DNA from: Alphaproteobacteria bacterium
GTDB lineage: Bacteria > Pseudomonadota > Alphaproteobacteria > Rhizobiales > Rhizobiaceae
Assembly (NCBI GenBank): GCA_024742485.1
Contig: JANSYK010000002.1
Location: 1,054,001 to 1,118,000, forward strand
Direction: 5' to 3'
Length of the DNA stretch: 64,000 nucleotides
Part shown: positions 16,981 through 28,810 of the stretch, piece by piece
Layout of the letters: every line of letters begins with the position of its first letter
How positions within the stretch are numbered: the first letter of the stretch is position 1
Position numbers and translations under genes: made by a program
Notes under the pieces: model-generated
The model's input: only the letters and a program-made list of their open reading frames with translations
The model's database searches: none
Told to the model about the DNA's origin: nothing

Positions 16981-17979
16981 ATGACGACTGAAGACTACAA
17001 TCTTGGCGAGATAGGCTATGCAGGCGACGATCAGGTCGTTCCGTTTCAGGTGGAAGGCCTCGATGCACGAGGCCGCGCCGTTCAGCTTGGACCCATGCTC
17101 GACACCATTTTGGGCCGTCACGATTATCCCGAGCCGGTGGCTCGGCTGTTGGCGGAAGCAATCACGCTGACGGTACTGCTTGGGACCTCCCTTAAATTCG
17201 ATGGCAAATTCATCGTGCAGACACAGGGTGACGGGCCCGTCGATCTGCTGGTCGCCGATTTCACGACACCCGACAGTCTGCGCGCCTATGCCCGTTTTGA
17301 TGACAAATTATTGGCTGAAGCCGTGGCCGAAGGCCGGCTGGAGCCACATGAATTGCTCGGTACCGGCGTTCTGGCCTTCACCATCGACCAGGGCAGTCAC
17401 ATGCAGCGCTATCAGGGCATTGTTGAGCTCACCGGAGCGACTTTGGAAGAAATCGCCCGCGCCTATTTCCGGCAATCCGAGCAGATCCCAACCGAAGTGC
17501 GCCTTGCGGCGGCCCAGCTTTACGCGCGCGATGCCGCCGGCACGACCGGTCATCATTGGAGGGCCGGCGGGGTGGTGTTGCAGTTTTTGCCCGAATCCGA
17601 GGAGCGTATACGGCAGACCGACCTTCCGGGCGGTGATATTCCGGACGATCTCGATGAGGATGATGACGGCGACGACGAAGATGAGGATTGGGTGGAAGCC
17701 AAGGCACTGATGGAAACCATCGGTGACGATGAGCTGACAGATCCCCAGGTCGGCTCCGAGAGGCTGCTGTACCGTCTGTTCCATGAACGCGGCGTCCGGG
17801 TGTTCGATCCGGTTGCCGTGCAGGACAATTGCACCTGCTCTCGCGAAAAGATCCGCTCGGTTCTGGATGGATTTGACGAACAGGAAATCGAAGAGAGCAT
17901 CGAGGACGGAAAAATCTCCGTCAAATGCGAATTCTGCTCCACTGACTACGTCTTCGATCCGGGTGAATTGGACAGCTGA
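16981..17979 (+). CDS. hslO: Hsp33 redox-regulated chaperone
   Basis: A 332-residue Hsp33. The N-terminal domain is typical (GRHDYPEPVARLLAEAITL, FKGKF-like LKFDGKFIVQTQGDGPVDLLV). The C-terminal redox switch has all four zinc cysteines: Cys284 and Cys286 (NCTCS) and Cys316 and Cys319 (KCEFC). Oxidation of these releases zinc and turns on holdase activity. An acidic insert (DDLDEDDDGDDEDED) lies before the switch region. It follows argF by 41 bases; the argD-argF-hslO order is familiar in Rhizobiales. Confidence 0.95.
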   Translation: MTTEDYNLGEIGYAGDDQVVPFQVEGLDARGRAVQLGPMLDTILGRHDYPEPVARLLAEAITLTVLLGTSLKFDGKFIVQTQGDGPVDLLVADFTTPDSLRAYARFDDKLLAEAVAEGRLEPHELLGTGVLAFTIDQGSHMQRYQGIVELTGATLEEIARAYFRQSEQIPTEVRLAAAQLYARDAAGTTGHHWRAGGVVLQFLPESEERIRQTDLPGGDIPDDLDEDDDGDDEDEDWVEAKALMETIGDDELTDPQVGSERLLYRLFHERGVRVFDPVAVQDNCTCSREKIRSVLDGFDEQEIEESIEDGKISVKCEFCSTDYVFDPGELDS

Positions 17980-18118
17980 AACGCCGATCACCATGTGCTG
18001 AAGAGCCTCGTAGCGGTCGAAATGGCCAGCCCCGGTTGAAGCCAGGGTCGATGATCTGTAACCTGTCAGTGTTTCTGGTCGTGGGGATCGGCCACATCGC
18101 GTTGGGGTATCAGTCAGT

Positions 18119-19381
18119 ATGTGTTGCATTGAAGTTGAACGGCTGCGCGCCGCAGCTATGGGGGTGGTGAAGCCCGCGGCCTCCTCTGCATTTGTTGTTG
18201 GACTGTTGGCCGCTTCGGCATTGTATTATCCTGCCGAGCCCGCAATGGCCGAAAGCCGGCTGATAACAACCGATGCGGTGTCGACAGTATTTCAGTTTGG
18301 CCATGTTTCCGGCGAACATTATGCCGACAAGGCCTTCGCTGTCAGAAGCATTGAAAATCGGTGTCGAGACCGGCCGCAGACCAACAATGCACAGGCCGAA
18401 TTTATCAGTTTTCTCGGCGGACGAATGTCGGCAGAGGACTTTGCCAAGATGTGCCGCCGCGCATTGGACCGTGAAAGACAGGTTCGGGAGATTGACCGGG
18501 AACTGCTGAAAACAGGGATCGTTCTGGGTGATGTTCGCCCAAAAACAGCACCGCCATTTGGAGATATCTCGGGCGACCCGAAATTGGTCAACAACGGTAC
18601 GGCGGTCGGGTTTGATATCGGTACGACGGATGTCACGGTGACAAGGGGTCCAGGCACCGGCCTTGAACCAGGTGCAGAAAACTTCTTTGTTCAAGACAAA
18701 TGGGAATTCAAAAAGTGGTCGGCCAACATAGGAATTCGGGATGAGGAGTTCGGACCGCAACCGGCACCCGTCAAGACCTGGATTGGTGTTGGCGCAGGAT
18801 TCGACCTGTTGGCGCGGGATGTCATTCAACTCAACGGATTCAACCAATTTCTCAAAACCGGGACCGCAGAATATGCTGCGTTGGAATTCGGGATTGAAAA
18901 GCGGCTCTCCGGTCACCTCAACCTGATCGGCTCCTTCACCTTGCAGCGCAACGCTGTCGATATCAAAAGCCTTGGCAACAACCCGCCGGCTGTCGGTTCC
19001 CTGCCGCTGGGCGGAGACATCGAAACATGGAGCCTGGCACCGCGCATCGGACTGTCCTACGACGTTGTGCGGAACGGGAAAACACGCATGGTTCCGTGGG
19101 CCATGGTGGGCGCTGGCGTCGCATTTCAGGATCTCAATGCCACGAATAGTGGCGCAACCGTGTTGAGCGGCAACAAGACGACTGCGATGGTGACATTTGC
19201 GGGAGGTATCAAATTTCCCGTCAATGAACGCGTCAGTGTCGGGGTCAATGGGTTTGTGAACTGGTTCGACGGATTCAACGTCTCTGCCGGGCCAGGCGTC
19301 AATGCCGCCATGGCTTCACGAACCGAGGTAGGCGGCTACATATCTTTGGATATCAAGAACCCCTTCGGAACAGGGTACTGA
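18119..19381 (+). CDS. Probable outer-membrane beta-barrel protein
   Basis: A 420-residue protein with an N-terminal signal sequence (SAFVVGLLAASALYYPAEPAMAES). A 100-residue region with charged helices follows (MSAEDFAKMCRRALDRERQVREI). The C-terminal half has alternating hydrophobic strands with Gly turns, such as TWIGVGAGFDLLA, YAALEFGIEKRLSGHLNLIGSF, VPWAMVGAGVAFQDL and VSVGVNGFVNWF, which resemble porin-like barrels. The end is GYISLDIKNPFGTGY, with a terminal aromatic residue as expected of barrel proteins. The start at 18119 could also be an ATG 39 bases later. Family not recognised; no operon partner is evident. Confidence 0.65.
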   Translation: MCCIEVERLRAAAMGVVKPAASSAFVVGLLAASALYYPAEPAMAESRLITTDAVSTVFQFGHVSGEHYADKAFAVRSIENRCRDRPQTNNAQAEFISFLGGRMSAEDFAKMCRRALDRERQVREIDRELLKTGIVLGDVRPKTAPPFGDISGDPKLVNNGTAVGFDIGTTDVTVTRGPGTGLEPGAENFFVQDKWEFKKWSANIGIRDEEFGPQPAPVKTWIGVGAGFDLLARDVIQLNGFNQFLKTGTAEYAALEFGIEKRLSGHLNLIGSFTLQRNAVDIKSLGNNPPAVGSLPLGGDIETWSLAPRIGLSYDVVRNGKTRMVPWAMVGAGVAFQDLNATNSGATVLSGNKTTAMVTFAGGIKFPVNERVSVGVNGFVNWFDGFNVSAGPGVNAAMASRTEVGGYISLDIKNPFGTGY

Positions 19382-19515
19382 TCGTTTCTCAGACCGGAAC
19401 ACACGCTTCCCGACGGTCGATCAGCTTGGCGGCCTTTTGATAAAAGTTGGCGCTGAGATGGCGCGCGCCTCCTGATCGGAATTTTACGTTCGCGCCTTTG
19501 GCAATTGCTACCTGC

Positions 19516-20538
19516 TCATAGGCCGCTCGCGTAGGGTGAGAGCCAGTCGGCGTATTTGTCGGCCAGTTGTTGTGCTCGTCCGCTGTCCGCCAGGATGAGG
19601 TCGACGCCACCATCATAGGGCGCGAATATTGACGGAGCCTCGTTGGCCGATACCCACAAGACACCGGTATCAGCGTCAGCGGCGATTTTGGCGAGCAAAT
19701 CCTCAAACAGCGGGGGCTCCCAGTTGCACCGCTTTACATAGGCTACGATTTCGGCCGGCTCTATGGGTTCGTCTTGGCGGAACCAGGCAAGACCGGGCTT
19801 GAGTGAATATGTTTCGACCGCATCATCTTCTATCGGCGGCGCTTCCAGGTATCTGTTGGCAATCATCCAGCAAGGCGTTCCTGACCCGAGAACCTCTTCG
19901 GCCAGTCTGATGCTACGACGGACAATCTCCCGGTTTTCTTCGTCCGTCTCGGCATACCGCTTGGATTCGGGAAGGGAATGAAACCGAACCCAGCGCTCGG
20001 CAAAGATCTGCCGCAAAAAATCGGCCGTCGGTTCGTGTCCACCAAAATGACGCCACCAGAACGTGCCGAACGCGATGGCGGTTTGGGCGTCTGCCTGATC
20101 CGGTTGGGCCGCAAGGTTCCGGCTCTTGGCAGCTTCAAGCAGAAGTGCCTGCATGCGCGGCGATATCACGAAATCATTATAGGGAATGAAGCTCTCGTCA
20201 TCGATGCAGGACCAGGCCCAGACTGACCAGGCATGCAAGTACCAGTGCGCTTTCAATCGGTCTTCGACTTTTTGCCAAATCGGGGTCGCCAGATAATCCG
20301 GATCACCATCGCCGGCTGACGCAAGGATCAGTTCCATCAAAAGGAACTTCTCATCATCATCCAGTTCAGCGTTGTCATAGAGTTCGAGGAATTCAGCAAT
20401 CCGGTCAAAGTCCTGAAATCTCCGTTCCCAATCCTGGATGTCGGGATGGTCGGACAATCCCAGCCGACGAGAAAGGGATGCTCTTGCCGCAGGTGTTTCA
20501 AAACGTTCCGGCGGGATTTCGAGATTTGAAAAGCTCAT
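19516..20538 (-). CDS. Hypothetical protein with possible immunity-type C-terminal domain
   Basis: A 340-residue, acidic, soluble protein without signal peptide. The first 250 residues are helical and Trp-rich (HAWSVWAWSCIDDESFIPYNDFV). The C-terminal 90 residues (WEPPLFEDLLAKIA, then IFAPYDGGVDLILAD and DKYADWLS) resemble a small domain that I associate with DUF3885-like and immunity-type proteins: a strand pair, a PYDGG turn and a closing DWLS helix. That link is from memory of the pattern, not a search. It starts 49 bases after the secreted Cys-rich gene on the same strand and is divergent from the large zinc-ribbon protein. If that protein is a toxin, this is a candidate immunity or accessory gene. 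Confidence 0.6.
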   Translation of the reverse strand: MSFSNLEIPPERFETPAARASLSRRLGLSDHPDIQDWERRFQDFDRIAEFLELYDNAELDDDEKFLLMELILASAGDGDPDYLATPIWQKVEDRLKAHWYLHAWSVWAWSCIDDESFIPYNDFVISPRMQALLLEAAKSRNLAAQPDQADAQTAIAFGTFWWRHFGGHEPTADFLRQIFAERWVRFHSLPESKRYAETDEENREIVRRSIRLAEEVLGSGTPCWMIANRYLEAPPIEDDAVETYSLKPGLAWFRQDEPIEPAEIVAYVKRCNWEPPLFEDLLAKIAADADTGVLWVSANEAPSIFAPYDGGVDLILADSGRAQQLADKYADWLSPYASGL

Positions 20539-20587
20539 GTATTACAGGGTCTCCCAAGGGGCGAGGGCAACAGGAATGCGGCCCGGA

Positions 20588-21070
20588 TCATCTCTCTTCG
20601 GGAACGATGATGCGGCAGTTTTCAGTGTTTTTTTCACACTCTGACATGGCGTGACGGATTGCGTCTTCCAGCACATCATGGCTTGCATTGCTGAAGCCAC
20701 AGCTTTGTTCACCAAGCGCGAACGCCACCGGCTGTTGAACTTCGCCGCGCGACATGCGCACGTACGCTGTTTTGCAGTATTCGCCATCTTCCATGTTGCT
20801 GAACTTGTATCCAGTCGTTGCCAGTCGAGCGAAGATTGAAGTCCGGTCTTCGTCGAGCAAATTGGAGGGCAGGACGGTCCGAACGCCCTTGTCCGGATCG
20901 TCCGCCTGTTCATCAGCCTGATGGATGCAAAATCCCTGATAATGAAGCCGGTATCCCGCAGGGCATTCTTCAGCAGACACGGCTTGGCCGGTCGTTCCAA
21001 GCAAGACAATGGCAGCGCCGATCACCACACCGGCGGTAATCGCAAGGTGTGGGGACAGCGCGTCACCCAT
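20588..21070 (-). CDS. Secreted six-cysteine protein, unknown
   Basis: A 160-residue protein from the ATG at 21070. The N-terminus is a plausible signal peptide (AITAGVVIGAAIVLLGTTGQAVSAEEC), cleaved after VSA. The mature part has six Cys (EECPAGY, GFCIHQ, EYCKTAY, EQSCGF, SECEKN, ENCRII), suggesting three disulfides. The C-terminus forms a helix (HDVLEDAIRHAMSECEK). Upstream in-frame ATG and TTG starts lack a ribosome site; the chosen start has GGAG, though 12 bases away. The family is not recognised. It is probably cotranscribed with the 340-residue gene downstream and lies divergently from the zinc-ribbon operon, 238 bases away. Confidence 0.65.
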   Translation of the reverse strand: MGDALSPHLAITAGVVIGAAIVLLGTTGQAVSAEECPAGYRLHYQGFCIHQADEQADDPDKGVRTVLPSNLLDEDRTSIFARLATTGYKFSNMEDGEYCKTAYVRMSRGEVQQPVAFALGEQSCGFSNASHDVLEDAIRHAMSECEKNTENCRIIVPEER

Positions 21071-21308
21071 GATTTCGCTTGCTCTCCGATTGAGACCGGT
21101 GTCTCTTTTTCCTTGAATTCCCATCATCGGACACAATGCAACGGAACATGTCCATGAGCAATACGCCGTTCAGGTCCGCTTGGGACAGAACGGCCTGTCA
21201 CACCGCCTATACCGCGATAAAGAGTTATTGTGTTGATTTGTCGTCCAATACGTCCAACACTGGAGGCAGGTGGGGGCAGACAAATTATGACTGACGTTCA
21301 GGCACACA

Positions 21309-24300
21309 ATGGCTGAATGCGAAGGTTGCGGGAGCAATAACGCTGCTGGCGTTCAGTTCTGTACGAAATGCGGACGAGTCCTGTCCGCCGGCCGGAAAAA
21401 GCCGAAGCCGGCCTCGTCGGATGCCAAGACGGGCGATTTCGCGCAGGATGATATCTTCTCGGACATGTTTGCAGGCGTTGCAAACGGCCGTCAGAGGGAG
21501 ACGAACAAGCCCGATCGCCCTGATGCAGGCCAGGCGGAAAACACGCAGAATTCCGTTTCGGGAACCGACCAGAGACCGACCTCGTCAACCCATTCAGAGG
21601 GACAAACACGCGCCGACGTCATCAGAAGCGTCGCCAGATCAGCAGCGAAAGCAATCGCCAAAAGCGTTGCTCTGAGCGCGGCGGTCCTCGGTCCCGGATT
21701 CATACTGTTGGTCATGGGGATCACCATACCGGGCATGATCTGGTTGTTCTGTGGCTCCTTTGGGCTGATGGCCTGGACCTATCGACGACCCTGGCGTCTT
21801 GGAATGATCAGTTGCCTGACGCCGCCGCTTGCCGCCGCGGCCTGCTATGCCGTCCAGCTCACTCTATTTGGAGACGCCGCTCCGCCGGGTTTGCTGATTG
21901 CAGCCGCCGTCGCCATTGGTATTGCCATTGGTTACTGGCGGGCGCAAACCCATGAAGTCAAACCGGATTCCGGTGGGATCGTCGCCGAGCGGACAATCGG
22001 CTATCTCATCGTCTGGGTGGTGGCCTACGGGATCACGCAGGCGATGGGACTGGTCGCGCTGAATGAGCTGGCAATCCGTGGTGGTCTCATCACCGGTGCC
22101 TTTTCGACGGCCATGCTGGTGATGGTGAGTGTGGTCATATGGCGTCGTTACACGATCCTGAAAGCCGTATCCGGGATCGCCGTCATCTACATATGTACTG
22201 GGTTTTTGGTTGCGGATGCGCAGGCTGCTGAACGGTTTTGCTGGGAACGCGTGCCCGGCCCGAAATACGCCGTGCATATCGGGGACAATGTCAATCTGCA
22301 TGCCTGTCTCAATTCGGGCAGCTGCGAGACTGGTGGCCGGCTGCCAAACGCGTCTTTTATGGTGACAATCGGCCGAAGTGCAGGCAGCAACGGTTCTTTG
22401 TCTCGTGCTGACATTTCGAACCATATCTGCAAGGTGATCAGGTCACAGTTTCAGCCGGTCGCTCAAAATCAACCAACGCCCAGCCGAAGCGGTGGTGGAC
22501 TGACGGTCAACACACCGCTTTGCTGGATGGGCATTTCAGACGGCTACATTGGCCCGGCTATCGACAGATCAACCGATGACCCCGGTTGCGACTTTGTCGG
22601 TTCCTGCCGCGAGGTCATTGGTCGTACCGGATCAGACCTTGGCGTTGACCTGCGCAACCCAAATACCGGCAATGTGAGCCGTTGGAGTTTGGAGGAGGGC
22701 ATCTGTTCCCAATTGGGCAATGCGCAGACCGGCATTGTGCAGTCTGGCGGCGAAGCCGAAATTGATGATGTTGCAAGAGCCACCGCGATTGTCGCGACGG
22801 TTCTGGTTGCCGCCGGGATCGCGGTTCACGTGGCGCAGGCGATCGCCATTGCGATTGCCAATGCGCTGCAATCCGGAGTCCAGCTCACCGCCGAGGAGAT
22901 TCAGCGGGCGGTCACCGACGCGCTGCTCAGCCGGTCCGACAAGGATGGACCCGGTAGTCGGGATACCGGCGATGCGCACAGCGCCGACGATCCGGATATC
23001 AATCGGCCCCCCAATGTAACGATGACGGAACGCGTGCGACCGTCACAGACCGGCCGAGACTCTGCACAATCGCATCCAGAGGCGCGTGAGCCGACATCGG
23101 ACCAGACCGACACGGAACCGAATGCACCTCCGAATGTCAGTTTTTCGGATCGTGTGAGACCACCAACTCCTGTCTACGATTCCGATGGCACCGCCTTCAG
23201 GACCAATGAAAAGGGTGAATATTGGGTTCCGGACGAAAACGGAAACTGGGATTGGCGTTCAAAGGCACAGGCTGATGAAGCCGCAACCCATCGGGCGCAG
23301 ACCGCCCAGCAGAATCAGCAACAGGAAAGCGAACCAGAAGCAGAATCACCACAAGGAGAAACCGCGCAATCCGATCAAAATGAAGAAGAAAACGCAGATA
23401 AACCTGGACAGACCGAAGCGGCCACCGCTCACTCCGAACCCGAACCCGAACCCGAACCCGAACCCGAACCCGAACCCGAACCCGAACCCGAACCCGAACC
23501 CGAACCCGAGAAGCCTGCGCCGGACCAAGCACAGCCTGGCTTCGCTGGCCGTATCTGGGAACGTTTCGGACAGGGTATCGCGGATGTGGGGTCCGAAATT
23601 GGCCAAGTCGTGACCGACGCGAACAACAACCCGTGGGATGCCAACCTGTATTGGGCCGGCTCTTGGATCGGTGGGATGAGCCAGGATGTCCATGGTTTGC
23701 TCAAGGCCCCGGGAGATGCAGGGAGGATTCTGGGCGAAACGATCATCGAAACAGGAAAATCTGCCACCAGCGCTCTGGGTGATGCACTGAAGGACCCGCG
23801 TATAATTGGCGAAACGATGGCGGGAACCGGAACTGGCCTGCGCAATCTTGGTGAAAGCGCACTGGATGTTACGAGTGCAACTGCGCGGGCCGGACGCGAC
23901 ATCTGGAACGATCCGGATTTGCGCAACGACATGCTGGACGGCATGAACCAAACAGTCAATGACATCAGTCAGACCATCGGTGACACCCTTTCCGATCCGG
24001 ACAAGGTTGTCGACGGACTGAAGATTGTCACCGGTGCGGAAAATCTCGGAAACGCCCTGGATCATGAGCGATCTGTGCTTCAGCGAATGGGTGAGCTTGG
24101 AATGGGGTTGGCCGGACTCTACGGCACGCTGTCCGGTTTGCAGGGCGGCGCGCAATGGGTACGTGGTGGGGCATCAGGTGTCGTGAATCGAGTGGCGGGC
24201 GCCGGCTCATCCATGTTTGATGATGCGGCCCGAGCGGGCGCGCAAAGTGGTGATGAGCTCGCAGCGGCCGTATCCGGCTCTGCCGACGAACTGGCGGGTA

Positions 24301-25310
24301 CTCTCGACGAAGGCCTTCAGTCCGTGACCGCCACGGATGACCTGGCGGGTGGCGCCGGGGCTGCTCTGGTCGATGATGAATTGAATGTGGGCGGACAGGT
24401 GGCGGGCTCTGCTGATGAGACGGTTGGCGTCACAAACCTCGACGATGGCATGGTGCCACCGGATGGAAATGATTTCCCCGCCAATCCCCCATTGGATGAC
24501 CCGCCACCAGTGAACCCGGCTGACGATCTGCCGCCGGCTGGACCGGCTGACGAGATCGTTGAGCACGCCGATGATGCCGCGGCTGGTGCTGATGATACTG
24601 CAGAAGCCGCTGATGAAGTTGCGGAAGGTGCCGATGAAGCTGCACAGGGTGCAGATGAAATCGCCGGTGGGGCTGATGAAGCGGCAGGAGGTGCGGATGA
24701 TGCGGCAGGGGGTGCGCCGGGTCCGGCGCCTGAACTCATCCCGACAACCTGGCAGACCAATCATCCGACTGGAATGTTGCAACTGGGGGGAATGGATTGC
24801 GCTGAAACGGTCGGGCGCCGGCTCATGATGGAACTCGGTGTCGGCGTCAATGACGACATCATCGGTGCTGCCGTTGCCCAGAACCGCGGCGCAACCGGCG
24901 GTATCGCCGGTGCGCGATATGAAAGCTTCTTCTCAGAGCTGGGTTTTCAGACGCGAAAATTGCCCGTTCATGACACGGGGACCGCCAAACAGAAGGTGGA
25001 AGCGTTGGGGCGGATTCTGGAGGCAAGACCGAATTCGAGAATTGTAGTCGATTTGGGCATGCCGGGAATGACCGAAGCGCATTCAGGCGTGATCGATACC
25101 GTTGAAACGGTGATGACCGAGGGGCTCAATGGGCTGGAAGAAGTCTACTATCTTCACATCCGGGAACCGAGCCTGGGCACAAGGATGAGGGTTCCGATGT
25201 CATCTATTGACGGCGGCCCCTCTCTGAAGGACGCCGCCGGAAATGTCATTCCGACCCAAGCCGGCCGGTTGAGGGTCAATTGGTGGAACAGCTATCTGGT
25301 CAGCGCATGA
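21309..25310 (+). CDS. Giant zinc-ribbon membrane protein with C-terminal papain/C39-like domain
   Basis: A 1333-residue multidomain protein. Residues 4-21 are a zinc ribbon (Cys4, 7, 18, 21). About six hydrophobic segments fill residues 118-307. Two similar Cys modules follow (from about 311 and 405, each starting CW, with GSC in the middle and an IC near the end). Another hydrophobic stretch is at about 490-520. Then come twin PPNV-x-RVRP motifs, an EP hexanucleotide repeat (710-733), a helical region (about 745-990), and an Ala/Asp/Gly repeat linker (about 1079-1136). The last 190 residues look like a papain/C39-type cysteine peptidase or toxin domain: Cys1164 (GGMDCAETVG) and His1258 (EAHSGVIDT). 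The layout resembles polymorphic toxins (inference). Two more zinc-ribbon genes follow. Confidence 0.75.
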   Translation: MAECEGCGSNNAAGVQFCTKCGRVLSAGRKKPKPASSDAKTGDFAQDDIFSDMFAGVANGRQRETNKPDRPDAGQAENTQNSVSGTDQRPTSSTHSEGQTRADVIRSVARSAAKAIAKSVALSAAVLGPGFILLVMGITIPGMIWLFCGSFGLMAWTYRRPWRLGMISCLTPPLAAAACYAVQLTLFGDAAPPGLLIAAAVAIGIAIGYWRAQTHEVKPDSGGIVAERTIGYLIVWVVAYGITQAMGLVALNELAIRGGLITGAFSTAMLVMVSVVIWRRYTILKAVSGIAVIYICTGFLVADAQAAERFCWERVPGPKYAVHIGDNVNLHACLNSGSCETGGRLPNASFMVTIGRSAGSNGSLSRADISNHICKVIRSQFQPVAQNQPTPSRSGGGLTVNTPLCWMGISDGYIGPAIDRSTDDPGCDFVGSCREVIGRTGSDLGVDLRNPNTGNVSRWSLEEGICSQLGNAQTGIVQSGGEAEIDDVARATAIVATVLVAAGIAVHVAQAIAIAIANALQSGVQLTAEEIQRAVTDALLSRSDKDGPGSRDTGDAHSADDPDINRPPNVTMTERVRPSQTGRDSAQSHPEAREPTSDQTDTEPNAPPNVSFSDRVRPPTPVYDSDGTAFRTNEKGEYWVPDENGNWDWRSKAQADEAATHRAQTAQQNQQQESEPEAESPQGETAQSDQNEEENADKPGQTEAATAHSEPEPEPEPEPEPEPEPEPEPEPEPEKPAPDQAQPGFAGRIWERFGQGIADVGSEIGQVVTDANNNPWDANLYWAGSWIGGMSQDVHGLLKAPGDAGRILGETIIETGKSATSALGDALKDPRIIGETMAGTGTGLRNLGESALDVTSATARAGRDIWNDPDLRNDMLDGMNQTVNDISQTIGDTLSDPDKVVDGLKIVTGAENLGNALDHERSVLQRMGELGMGLAGLYGTLSGLQGGAQWVRGGASGVVNRVAGAGSSMFDDAARAGAQSGDELAAAVSGSADELAGTLDEGLQSVTATDDLAGGAGAALVDDELNVGGQVAGSADETVGVTNLDDGMVPPDGNDFPANPPLDDPPPVNPADDLPPAGPADEIVEHADDAAAGADDTAEAADEVAEGADEAAQGADEIAGGADEAAGGADDAAGGAPGPAPELIPTTWQTNHPTGMLQLGGMDCAETVGRRLMMELGVGVNDDIIGAAVAQNRGATGGIAGARYESFFSELGFQTRKLPVHDTGTAKQKVEALGRILEARPNSRIVVDLGMPGMTEAHSGVIDTVETVMTEGLNGLEEVYYLHIREPSLGTRMRVPMSSIDGGPSLKDAAGNVIPTQAGRLRVNWWNSYLVSA
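23436..23507 (+). repeat. Hexanucleotide tandem repeat (gaaccc)x12
   Basis: Twelve perfect copies of gaaccc encode an uninterrupted (Glu-Pro)12 tract within the giant zinc-ribbon protein. Units are identical at the DNA level, so the tract is recent or prone to slippage; changes in copy number keep the frame and would vary the linker length. Confidence 0.95.
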
Positions 25311-25382
25311 CCCCGTGCAGGACGCAAAGTAGAAACATATGCTATTGAATTTGCTTTTTTTATTCCAGTCGAGGCACTAGAA

Positions 25383-26561
25383 ATGACCAGCGAAACAGGC
25401 GCCAATGACACATATTTTCGCTTTCAGGTCAGCGAGAGCGATTTCCCGCATCTGGTTCATGAGCTTTTCAATGGCGCCATCGACCCGAAATCGCCGATTG
25501 CATCCATCACAACCGAGCGGGGTCGGCAAAGCGGGACGGCTTCGGCACAATTGTCCGGACTGACGGTTAGTGAACAGGTTGCCACTGCCGTGAACATTCT
25601 GGCGGCACCCGATCTGATCATGAATTGCAGAACGGGAGGGGGCGTGCCCACCGGATATCTCAGCGCCTGCCATGCAAAATCGGTCAATCCGGATGCCTTT
25701 GCTGTTGTGACGCCATCATTCGAACGCGCGTTCATGGTGACCCTCTTTGAGGATCAGCAGCAATTTCTGACCGCATGGATTGCGGCAAATGCATCTGCCG
25801 CAGATACAGCCGTTGTCAATCTGATTTCATCAAAGATGCGATATGAATCGCTGGTCTACATATTTCATGCGATCGATCTGTACCGGCGCACAACGATGCA
25901 AAATCTGCTGCAGCACAGTGCCGACACATCTCCCACAATATCGGTTGATGAATTCACCGGCTCGCTGGGCAGCTCGACAAAAAGTGGTGACCTTCGCTGG
26001 CTGGTTCCCTGTTTCCTGGCCCTGACACCGGGTCTCGATCAATACGCCTTTCAAGGCGATATCACCCATGTGGAGGAACTGACCCGGCGGGACGTGCTTT
26101 ATGTTGAAGAGGAAGACGGCACACCAACCGAAACACTGACATATGGCGATGTCGGCCGGTCGCTCGGTATCGAATTTCACCGCAGCTGGCTGTCGGCGGC
26201 GGGGTATGAAACCAGCGTGCGAACATCACGTGGATGGCGGTCAACCGGACGTGCATTCCTGGCGCCAACCAGCCTGTGCAATCATCTGTTCAGCGTTAGC
26301 GGGTCAGCGAGTGAGGCCTTTGTCGATCATGCGGCCTTGTCTCGTGACGATCTTGCCGATGTGCTCGCACAGCAATTGCAGAGAACCGGCGAAGCCGTGT
26401 CAGATGCGAATGACAAAGCGGACGAAAACGCCGCAGCCGCTGTCGAGAAAGGCAACAGTAATCCGGCTCCGAAATTCTGCAACCAGTGCGGCAACGCCCT
26501 GTCGACCGGCAAAAAATTCTGCACGGCGTGCGGTGCGCCGGTCGATATCCAAACTGCATAA
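25383..26561 (+). CDS. Unknown protein with C-terminal zinc ribbon
   Basis: A 392-residue soluble protein that starts 72 bases after the giant gene. Residues 1-330 form an alpha/beta domain I do not recognise, for instance DFPHLVHELFNGAIDP, AVVTPSFERAFMVTLFEDQ and LRWLVPCFLAL. A charged, Ala-rich linker (about 335-360) leads to a C-terminal zinc ribbon with Cys366, 369, 380 and 383 (KFCNQCGN, KKFCTACGAP). Ribbon spacing is the same as in the genes on either side. Size and lone-domain layout would fit a secretion chaperone or adaptor, as EspG does for ESX substrates, but that is a guess. The start has GAGG 9 bases upstream. Confidence 0.75.
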   Translation: MTSETGANDTYFRFQVSESDFPHLVHELFNGAIDPKSPIASITTERGRQSGTASAQLSGLTVSEQVATAVNILAAPDLIMNCRTGGGVPTGYLSACHAKSVNPDAFAVVTPSFERAFMVTLFEDQQQFLTAWIAANASAADTAVVNLISSKMRYESLVYIFHAIDLYRRTTMQNLLQHSADTSPTISVDEFTGSLGSSTKSGDLRWLVPCFLALTPGLDQYAFQGDITHVEELTRRDVLYVEEEDGTPTETLTYGDVGRSLGIEFHRSWLSAAGYETSVRTSRGWRSTGRAFLAPTSLCNHLFSVSGSASEAFVDHAALSRDDLADVLAQQLQRTGEAVSDANDKADENAAAAVEKGNSNPAPKFCNQCGNALSTGKKFCTACGAPVDIQTA

Positions 26562-26574
26562 CGGGAACAATAAC

Positions 26575-27087
26575 ATGGCCAACAATTGTGCGAACTGTGG
26601 TGCGCCGCTGGGACCGGACGATCGCTTCTGCGGAGAATGCGGAACCGAGGTTCTGGCCGCATCCGCGTCCGAGCCGGATGTGGTGAATGGTGAGATCATC
26701 CAGGAACAAACTGGAACGCTCAATGATCTGGTGCACCAGATCCAGATGCTGATGGATGTTTCGACACCATGGGACAAAATCATCATCGATCTTCCCGACA
26801 GCGGCGACTTCCTCCAGTTCGCATTTGCGGAAAATGTGATGCAGCTGGATTTCCCGCTGGTCACACCGGAGCAAAAAGCCCGCACGGCTGAAGCGTTCAA
26901 TGTACTGACCGCGTTGGATTTGTTGCCATTCGTGGTTGAAGCGGCCGGCGGAGAAAAGGTCTTGGTTTGCGACCTGGAAGGCACGCCGCAGAAGAATGCC
27001 GAAATGACGCTCCGTATCGCAACGGATCTCTATGGCAGTTCCAATTTGAGCACGGCGAACTTCACGCTGATGGGACCACAACCATAG
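26575..27087 (+). CDS. Small zinc-ribbon protein with chaperone-like domain
   Basis: A 170-residue protein. The N-terminus is a zinc ribbon (Cys5, 8, 19, 22; NNCANCGAP, DRFCGECGTE). Residues about 45-165 form a compact alpha/beta domain (LNDLVHQIQMLMDV, FLQFAFAENVMQLDFPLVTP, KVLVCDLEGTP) whose strand pattern recalls YbjN/type III-chaperone-like folds; this is only a suggestion. The ATG at 26575 is preceded by CGGGAACAATAAC, 13 bases after the previous stop, so it is in the same operon. The shared ribbon suggests that all three proteins bind a common partner or each other. Confidence 0.75.
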   Translation: MANNCANCGAPLGPDDRFCGECGTEVLAASASEPDVVNGEIIQEQTGTLNDLVHQIQMLMDVSTPWDKIIIDLPDSGDFLQFAFAENVMQLDFPLVTPEQKARTAEAFNVLTALDLLPFVVEAAGGEKVLVCDLEGTPQKNAEMTLRIATDLYGSSNLSTANFTLMGPQP

Positions 27088-27248
27088 AGCCTCCATCCAC
27101 TTGGGGCCGCTGTGACCTGGACGGCAATTGAAGTTGTGCCCGATTCAATTGACCCGTTCGGAGCTGCCATCGTTACATTTTGGTACAATTCGGAAACCAA
27201 GATTATCTGGCAAGAGTGGCCGTGCTCACTATATGATCGGAGGTGATC

Positions 27249-27329
27249 ATGACAGGAAACACCAATACTTTGGTTTACCGGTTGTTTTATAACCGGAAAA
27301 TCAGGCCGATACAGGCGGGAACATGCTGA
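27249..27329 (+). CDS. 26-residue leader ORF upstream of RND efflux operon
   Basis: ATG 27249 is preceded directly by GGAGGTGATC, which matches the 16S rRNA 3' end over ten bases with GGAGG at optimal spacing. The ORF encodes 26 residues and stops with TGA at 27327-27329, overlapping the start of the membrane-fusion protein gene (ATG 27323), so translation of the two would be coupled. Inside it, ccggtt at 27278-27283 and aaccgg at 27291-27296 form a hairpin. Its ribosome site is stronger than that of the efflux gene itself. A regulatory leader is the likely role; expression is unproven. Confidence 0.5.
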   Translation: MTGNTNTLVYRLFYNRKIRPIQAGTC

Positions 27330-28810
27330 AGTCGATCCATGACGAAACGGAGGCGGAAACGCCATCCGCACCGGAGGAGCTTCAACGTCCGGTCGAAAGT
27401 CCGTCGCGCGTCAGGCGCGGTGGACGTGTTGTGATTCAAACCATCCTGATGCTGGCGGTCCTGGGTGCTTCCTACGGTGTGATGAACCGGCTGATCGACA
27501 CAAAGCCCGAACGGGCCGCACGAAACTTCCGGCCGACCGCCTACACGGTTGAATCGGTCGTCGTTGATGCCGCGAGCAATCGTCCGCAATTGCGGCTTTT
27601 CGGCGAGGTCCAGGCGGCACGGTTTGTCGAGTTGCGGCCGCTGGTCAATGGCGAGATCATCGCCGTCAATCCCTCCCTCAAGGCCGGCTCCGATGTGTCA
27701 CAAGGCGACGTGCTGATCGAGATCGACGCGTTCAACTATCGCGGCGCGTTGGCCGAGGCCCGCGCCAATTTGGCTCAGGCAAAGGCCACACTGGTCGAGA
27801 CCGAGGCGCGGATAACTGCCGAGCGGGACCAGCTTGCCGCAGCAGAAATGCAACTGACGCTGGCCGAGAGCGATCTGGGCCGCGCCGAATCCCTGGTCAG
27901 CAGCGGAACGCTGACCGAAAAGCAGGTCGAGGACCGACGCCTGATTGTCTCGCAACGCGAGCAGGCGGTCAGTCAGCGGCGCAACAATCAGCTGATCGAG
28001 GAAGCCCGGCGCGAACAGCAGATCGCCAATCTCGACAGCCTGACCTGGAAGGTTCAGCAGGCGGAGCGCAATCTTGAAAACACGGTTCTGAAATCACCCT
28101 TTACCGGCGTGATCAACTCCGCCGGTGCCGAGGTCGGTCGCTATGTCAGCAGCAGTGACGTCGTCGCCTCGGTCTATGATGATGAGGCGCTTGAAGTGCG
28201 CTTCACGCTGACCGATGCGCAATATGGACGAATATCGGCCGATACAGATCCCCTGATCGGGCGCGACATCGAGGTCATCTGGGTGGTCGGCCAAAGCAGT
28301 TATACCTATTTCGGCCAAATCGACCGCATCGGTGCGGAGATCGCATCGACCCGTGGCGGCGTGGAGGTGGTTGCGCGGCTGGATCCGACACGCGCCCAGG
28401 TCCAGTTGCGACCGGGAGCCTTTGTCGAAATCGATGTTCCCGATCGGCTCTATGCGGCATCCTATCGCGTGCCCGAGACAGCCCTGTATGACGGTTCCGC
28501 GGTTTTCGTCATCGAAGATGGACAACTTGCCCGTCGTGAGGTCGAGGTGGCGGCGTTTGATGGCGAAGACGTCATCATTGCATCCGGCCTCGAACCAGGG
28601 GATGCGGTGATGACCACCCATCTGACACAGGCCGACAATGGCGTGCGGGTTCGCGGACCGCTTTCCGGCGAAACACAACGCTCAGGCCCGCGTTCCGCCG
28701 GCAGCGACGCGAGCAATCCGCAACAGGCGGGTGGGCGCACCGGCGGAAGGCCGCAGGGTGATGCGCAACGCGCAGGTGCCCGTACCGCCGGCGGGGCCGG
28801 AGGCAACTGA
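27323..28810 (+). CDS. RND efflux periplasmic adaptor (membrane fusion protein)
   Basis: A 495-residue HlyD/AcrA-type adaptor. One transmembrane segment lies at about residues 37-58 (VIQTILMLAVLGASYGVM). The biotinyl-lipoyl half-motifs (VELRPLVNGEIIAV, then VLKSPFTGVI) surround a long coiled-coil hairpin (residues about 150-250, with EARANLAQAKATLVE and ERDQLAAAEMQL). The beta-barrel and membrane-proximal parts follow (VRFTLTDAQYG, LYDGSAVFVIEDG). The last 50 residues are Gly/Arg/Ala-rich and disordered. It is the first full gene of a two-gene pump operon; the transporter's GTG start lies 1 base after its stop. No outer-membrane channel gene is nearby. Confidence 0.92.
   Translation: MLKSIHDETEAETPSAPEELQRPVESPSRVRRGGRVVIQTILMLAVLGASYGVMNRLIDTKPERAARNFRPTAYTVESVVVDAASNRPQLRLFGEVQAARFVELRPLVNGEIIAVNPSLKAGSDVSQGDVLIEIDAFNYRGALAEARANLAQAKATLVETEARITAERDQLAAAEMQLTLAESDLGRAESLVSSGTLTEKQVEDRRLIVSQREQAVSQRRNNQLIEEARREQQIANLDSLTWKVQQAERNLENTVLKSPFTGVINSAGAEVGRYVSSSDVVASVYDDEALEVRFTLTDAQYGRISADTDPLIGRDIEVIWVVGQSSYTYFGQIDRIGAEIASTRGGVEVVARLDPTRAQVQLRPGAFVEIDVPDRLYAASYRVPETALYDGSAVFVIEDGQLARREVEVAAFDGEDVIIASGLEPGDAVMTTHLTQADNGVRVRGPLSGETQRSGPRSAGSDASNPQQAGGRTGGRPQGDAQRAGARTAGGAGGN

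Follow-up and report, generated by a model that had tools for sequence, protein, structure and literature searches.

What kind of system is made of three consecutive genes that each carry one zinc ribbon, the first of which encodes a giant membrane protein ending in a peptidase-like domain? Such a cassette, P0001-P0002-P0003, occurs in an alphaproteobacterial genome of the family Rhizobiaceae (GCA_024742485.1, contig JANSYK010000002.1), within a stretch of 64,000 nucleotides hereafter called the window (Table 1). The three genes share the plus strand and are separated by gaps of 72 and 13 bases. We regard it as an even call that the cassette is a membrane-tethered, toxin-like polymorphic effector system with a cysteine-protease payload. 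On this proposal, a conserved chassis comprising a zinc ribbon, a module of six transmembrane (TM) segments, a signal-peptide-like helix, periplasmic disulfide-type Cys modules, a further helix and a W-motif linker would carry an exchangeable C-terminal domain, which in this genome is, by predicted fold, a C39/papain-like cysteine protease with Cys1164 and His1258. A ribbon-bearing companion may dock on the giant by way of the ribbons, of the segment that precedes the effector, or of both. A signal sensed by the periplasmic module or the membrane would release or activate the protease, which would then cleave a cellular or incoming target.

Parts of the chassis recur in five related loci (genomes G032, G028, G048, G337 and G579), six with the window. 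Residues 89–285 of P0001 match a separate TM protein of G579 at 46% identity over 197 residues (E 7e-62), and residues 120–280 match the G048 giant at 34% over 163 columns (E 8e-16). The six-TM module is a stand-alone gene in G579, G032 and G337. Compared with the G032/G337 TM pair, the TM region of P0001 scored 35.9 (probability 62.9%), a score that none of 44 control stretches and none of 100 local shuffles attained; the highest-scoring control (33.7) turned out to be the G048 giant, at that point unrecognised. The G579 TM protein bridges the window module to those of G032 and G337 (G579–G032, 79.3%). Further along, the last helix and W-motif linker of P0001 align with the G579 giant (hhalign 99.2%, E 1.9e-19), whose linker matches that of G028 (87.6%, E 3.5e-6) and, weakly, that of G337 (22%); a short motif resembling the P0001 linker occurs in G028, G032 and G337. 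Judged by sequence, P0001 is a fusion of parts that stand as separate genes elsewhere, and its reading frame is backed by homology at residues 89–285, 502–535 and 626–680.

Three of the relatives have more in common. Their giants align with one another (G032–G337, 50% identity over 835 columns; G032–G028, about 225 residues at 40%; G337–G028, 28% over 351 columns), and their companion bodies are homologous (E 9e-54 to 3e-15). Neither the shared giant segment nor a homologous companion body was detected in the window or G579. Taken over five loci, the comparison suggests that the companion may contact the segment preceding the effector.

When the six giants are cut at the end of their shared regions, 14 of the 15 pairs of C-terminal parts are dissimilar, and only G032 and G337 resemble each other. 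An earlier note, made from the letters of the window, had likened the layout to a polymorphic toxin, and the differing C-termini of the relatives fit this: in the portion of Zhang et al. 2012 (PMC3482391) available to us, such toxins are characterised by C-termini that differ while the N-termini are kept. The G048 giant ends in a dissimilar C-terminal part with a single Cys746 and His784. By eye, its motifs QCGEF and SNHVAN (L019:10888-11490, minus strand) look papain- or transglutaminase-like; this reading found no support, the best PDB sequence match being RNase T1 (E 0.15).

The effector of P0001 is predicted from a structure model and fold search to be papain/C39-like, in agreement with the earlier note, which had also located Cys1164 and His1258 correctly. 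Beyond residue 466, Cys1164 is the sole cysteine of P0001. In the domain model, residue 27 (Cys1164) falls in helix 24–38 and residue 121 (His1258) opens strand 121–135, which would put the Cys close to where the first helix begins and the His at the start of a central strand, as in papain-like folds. The nearest folds to the model are the C39 domains of the peptidase-containing ABC transporters PCAT1 and ComA, at 10–14% identity. Predicted fold and Cys and His placement are alike; unlike PCAT1 and ComA, the P0001 domain is not joined to an ABC transporter.

Each of the three genes carries one CX2C-X10-CX2C zinc ribbon, N-terminal in P0001 and P0003 and C-terminal in P0002, just as the earlier note had described. 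The Pfam Zn_Ribbon_1 match passes its cut-off in P0002 and P0003 but falls short of it in P0001 (E 0.0039); apart from the ribbons, Pfam and NCBIfam gave no match over cut-off in the three proteins. Of the 266 stop-to-stop frames of the window that are 100 residues or longer, 5 contain the pattern CX2C-X8-12-CX2C; three of these five are P0001, P0002 and P0003. Linked ribbon genes extend to the relatives: ribbons lie in or beside the giant in 6/6 loci, including G337 and G579, which were reached via other parts.

Gene content varies around this theme. The G579 locus holds a 206-residue TM gene, a giant of 1081 residues whose start is signal-peptide-like by eye, and a 459-residue companion with a C-terminal ribbon. 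At G032, a TM gene, a ribbon-TM gene and a YkuD L,D-transpeptidase (Pfam) precede the giant, a companion with a C-terminal ribbon and a small ribbon gene; the transpeptidase and ribbon-TM gene (L018:1512-3919) hint at a cell-wall link. The G337 locus runs from a TM gene and a ribbon-TM gene to the giant, a companion with a C-terminal ribbon and a small gene. In G028, the giant has a TM region of its own and a ribbon at the N-terminus, and the companion that follows bears three ribbons at its C-terminus; three more genes with a ribbon and hydrophobic stretches lie about 4–8 kb from this giant (L020:7383-10562). The G048 giant lacks a ribbon and is followed by a gene with three. The gene after the companion also differs between loci (P0003 in the window, a 91-residue ribbon gene in G032, a 142-residue gene in G337), and Pfam matched none of these three to an immunity family. 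More tentatively than the effector proposal itself, we suggest that these loci may form a class of their own among membrane-tethered polymorphic effector systems, one that faces inward: the chassis would present exchangeable domains to the cytoplasm and would be assembled with ribbon-bearing partners, fused in the window, split in G579, G032 and G337, and in other arrangements in G048 and G028.

Hydropathy of P0001 shows about six helices (115–285), a signal-peptide-like helix (283–308) and a hydrophobic stretch of 38 residues (485–522). The earlier count of about six membrane segments therefore holds for the six-TM module and falls short of the whole membrane part, which has two further hydrophobic segments. 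The Cys modules that had been noticed are present as two four-Cys copies, eight Cys in all, related by duplication (C311/333/339/374, spacing 22-6-35; C405/427/433/466, spacing 22-6-33). Judging from gene order, helix 283–308 would be the positional counterpart of the start of the free-standing G579 giant. The topology we infer has the ribbon inside, about six helices, the signal-peptide-like helix, eight Cys outside, one hydrophobic stretch and the C-terminus inside; ribbons and C-terminus are placed in the cytoplasm because the helix count is even and a signal-peptide-like helix is present. In the G032 and G337 giants, no K/R precedes the last pre-linker helix and 3 and 4 follow it, which favours a cytoplasmic C-terminus. 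This anatomy hints at an inward-facing domain, and the surface-processing role once suggested for the cassette is not supported.

The strongest competing explanation, which we consider unlikely, is an exported interbacterial polymorphic toxin, with the membrane module as conduit, the protease displayed or extruded to neighbours, and P0002 or P0003 as immunity protein or chaperone. The differing C-termini of the relatives suit it, as do the hydrophobic signal-peptide-like segments that begin the G032 and G337 giants, and likewise, by eye, the G579 giant. Papain-like and C39-like toxins have been described as a class, and multi-TM PrsW has been proposed as a toxin conduit (PMC3482391, in the excerpt available). 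However, Pfam scans of the window and relatives show no known delivery domain above cut-off and no immunity family, and the charge pattern of G032 and G337 points the C-terminus into the cytoplasm.

Several observations weigh against the inward-facing effector system as we propose it. Single-sequence TM comparison of the window with G032 and G337 is weak (23.8% and 2.7%), and the TM region of G028 shows no match to the family. Chassis similarity (TM, last helix, linker) does not span most of the length across these six distant loci, and at such distances fast divergence, not C-terminal exchange, is possible. The peptidase-domain model was built on one sequence, with pLDDT 62.9 and pTM 0.61 (the other four models, 33–45). 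Homologues of the domain were found in its own genome only, among 199 genomes, so the Cys-His pair lacks conservation support, and no immunity gene, target or activity is established for it. The 6/6 ribbon count is biased, as 3 of the 5 relatives (G032, G028 and G048) were reached through ribbon matches. The charge hint appears in 2 of 6 giants; P0001, G579, G048 and G028 have no such bias, and the G028 giant is net -7 after the helix. The 38–40-residue stretch of P0001 (485–522) and G579 could be a hairpin, leaving the C-terminus outside, and G032, G337 and G028 carry one extra hydrophobic segment beyond the linker. In the relatives' loci, no match was obtained for the body of P0002 or of P0003, and PADLOC-DB 2.0.0 gave no match for P0001–P0003 up to E 0.1.

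The relatives came from separate homology searches whose genome samples overlap. Ribbon matches led to G032 (L018), G028 (L033) and G048 (L019); the G028 companion body was also matched by the G032 companion (E 2.8e-19). A companion profile reached G337 (E 1e-42 over the body) and gave matches in 20 of 297 genomes; those of the others that were inspected, singly or in the match table, were ribbon or chance matches, and the remainder fall mainly in ribbon columns. A TM profile reached G579, from another order (E 4.5e-47), with matches in 2 of 367 genomes including the window's own; the updated profile found its own genome only, 1 of 309 in the phylum sample. Residues 1–527 of P0001 matched its own genome and one unrelated-looking sequence among 199. 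Four matches were set aside: this last one, L009 of G223 (27% over P0001 60–194, E 7e-4), by eye a small unrelated-looking protein; L017, overlying an mnmE-like gene in the wrong frame or strand; L059, serine dehydratase-like by eye; and L032, regulator-like by eye. No relative was found in plasmids, in phages (searched with the peptidase domain only) or in viral contigs (searched with P0002 and the peptidase domain).

Full-length P0002 matched its own genome only (1 of 61), with ribbon-region matches in 3 others; its body matched its own genome and one chance sequence among 289; and a search of genome contigs returned one ribbon-only locus. P0003 matched its own genome and, by the ribbon only, 5 genomes among 199. 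Homology of the P0002 body to other companions found no support from blastp, hhalign or shuffles, and an EspG-like identity of the companions, a by-eye impression, found none from a PDB sequence search with the companion profile. Nor could we support the view of the small genes as dedicated chaperones: the P0002 body has no convincing match, the P0003 structure model is low-confidence (pLDDT 53.6), and P0003 scored 7.1 against one YbjN sequence by hhalign, below a shuffle maximum of 17.5, although a shared fold may escape such a single-sequence comparison.

The cassette sits in DNA that appears to have been inserted. In all seven congeners, the left flank (window positions up to around 17,960) leads into the MFP gene (around 27,400 onwards in the window), at a distance of roughly 250–500 bases in 6 of 7 and 2.5 kb in the nearest, G003. 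Because the congener flanks join with little or other DNA between them, we read the window as carrying an insertion of about 9.4 kb, with a GC content of 0.568 against 0.588 and 0.592 in the flanks. None of the 7 congeners has a match to P0002, nor does the P0001 N-terminus have one in G001 and G005, the two listed as covered. Because the system is modular, rare and located in an island, it may be used in conflict, against competitors or phage. The island location, at a site nearly empty or differently filled in 7/7 congeners, also suits a less probable alternative, that of phage defence or stress-triggered self-targeting, in which the giant would sense membrane or periplasmic damage and a cytoplasmic protease would kill or arrest its own cell. 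Patchy distribution and a sensor-like membrane anatomy with a probably cytoplasmic effector fit this too; against it, PADLOC on 8 proteins (the rest of the window was not searched for defence genes) gave 2 matches with E below 0.1, each marginal and each in a relative. A role as an ordinary C39 leader peptidase in a pathway of peptide export, and with it any housekeeping C39 role, ranks low and is improbable: the nearest folds and the MFP/RND pair downstream (Pfam) recall such a pathway, but P0001 has no ABC domain by Pfam, the relatives' chassis lack a similar C-terminus, and the MFP gene lies in the conserved flank, outside the island, and is matched in 8/8 genomes of the genus.

Table 1. 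Features of the cassette and its insertion, in window coordinates (ORF, open reading frame)
Feature	Position	Strand	Basis
P0001, giant membrane protein, 1333 aa	21309..25310	+	ORF; homology to relatives
P0002, companion, 392 aa, body without detected homologues	25383..26561	+	ORF; searches
P0003, 170 aa, N-terminal ribbon and further domain	26575..27087	+	ORF; Pfam
P0001 N-terminal zinc ribbon, C4-C21	21318..21371	+	motif; under Pfam cut-off
P0001 six-TM module, residues 115-285	21651..22163	+	homology to G579 TM gene, G048
P0001 signal-peptide-like helix, residues 283-308, ending ADAQAAE	22155..22232	+	hydropathy
P0001 duplicated four-Cys module, probably periplasmic	22239..22706	+	Cys spacing
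P0001 last hydrophobic stretch, residues 485-522, conserved in G579	22761..22874	+	62% identity/34 aa, E 1e-6
P0001 W-motif linker, residues 626-680, GEYWVPDENGNW	23184..23348	+	38% identity to G579, E 5e-9
P0001 C-terminal papain/C39-like domain, residues 1151-1333 (predicted)	24759..25307	+	predicted structure, fold comparison
Cys1164 codon, predicted nucleophile near helix start	24798..24800	+	sequence and model
His1258 codon, at strand start	25080..25082	+	sequence and model
P0002 C-terminal zinc ribbon, C366-C383	26478..26531	+	Pfam
P0003 N-terminal zinc ribbon, C5-C22	26587..26640	+	Pfam
Accessory insertion holding the cassette, ~9.4 kb	17968..27400		absent at site in 7/7 congeners

A longer ORF in the P0003 frame (26143–27087) begins inside P0002, so ATG 26575 is the sensible start of P0003. 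Scans for promoters and terminators gave no informative excess over shuffles (1 promoter-like site against a shuffle mean of 2.0; 8 terminator-like sites against a mean of 5.0, standard deviation 1.9). Three other genes share the insertion. An outer-membrane beta-barrel-like protein (18119–19381, plus strand; Pfam E 0.0012, under cut-off) had no tblastn match in the 7 congener stretches around the cassette site. A DUF3885 protein (E 6e-32) lies at 19516–20538 on the minus strand, opposite to the cassette; a literature search on DUF3885 gave nothing related. Divergent from P0001, a small protein at 20588–21136 (minus strand) with, by eye, a signal-peptide-like start and several Cys is weakly DUF4189-like (E 0.08, under cut-off) and may be part of the cassette. 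The interval from the gene at 16981–17979 to the MFP gene (27323) has the look of an accessory hotspot; the 2.5-kb stretch of G003 holds an ankyrin-like ORF by eye.

How does the cassette compare with known systems? Like polymorphic toxins with papain-like C-termini (Tox-PLC39 and relatives), it has a multidomain giant with kept N-terminal parts, differing C-termini, a predicted C-terminal papain-fold peptidase and an accessory location. Unlike them, it begins with a zinc ribbon and a six-TM chassis, which is not among the trafficking modes named in the portion of PMC3482391 at hand, has ribbon partners and no identified immunity gene, and may face its effector to the cytoplasm. PrsW-type membrane-embedded toxin processing, described there, similarly places a multi-helix membrane domain before exchangeable C-termini, and PrsW proteins fused to Zn-ribbons are mentioned as signalling forms; here, Pfam gives no PrsW match, and the giant has two membrane parts with a Cys module between. 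Unlike the CdiA-CT toxin of Citrobacter rodentium (8ssm) and the papain-like toxin/immunity pair 9l5u, the cassette has no CdiA-type or other delivery domain above Pfam cut-off. Other conflict systems combine zinc ribbons and membrane proteins (PMC12419801 and PMC7159879, as excerpted), and our literature search found no description of this gene composition. The payload and the modular principle are known, whereas a chassis of this kind with ribbon partners appears to be undescribed in the literature searched.

If our proposal is true, the cassette would give polymorphic toxins a further mode of trafficking and display, built on a membrane chassis with ribbon partners; alternatively, it would represent a class that faces the cytoplasm and stands between toxin and defence systems. 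Comparing the fused with the split forms would map the parts expected to be in contact, and because the peptidase domain has a single Cys, its activity would be easy to test.
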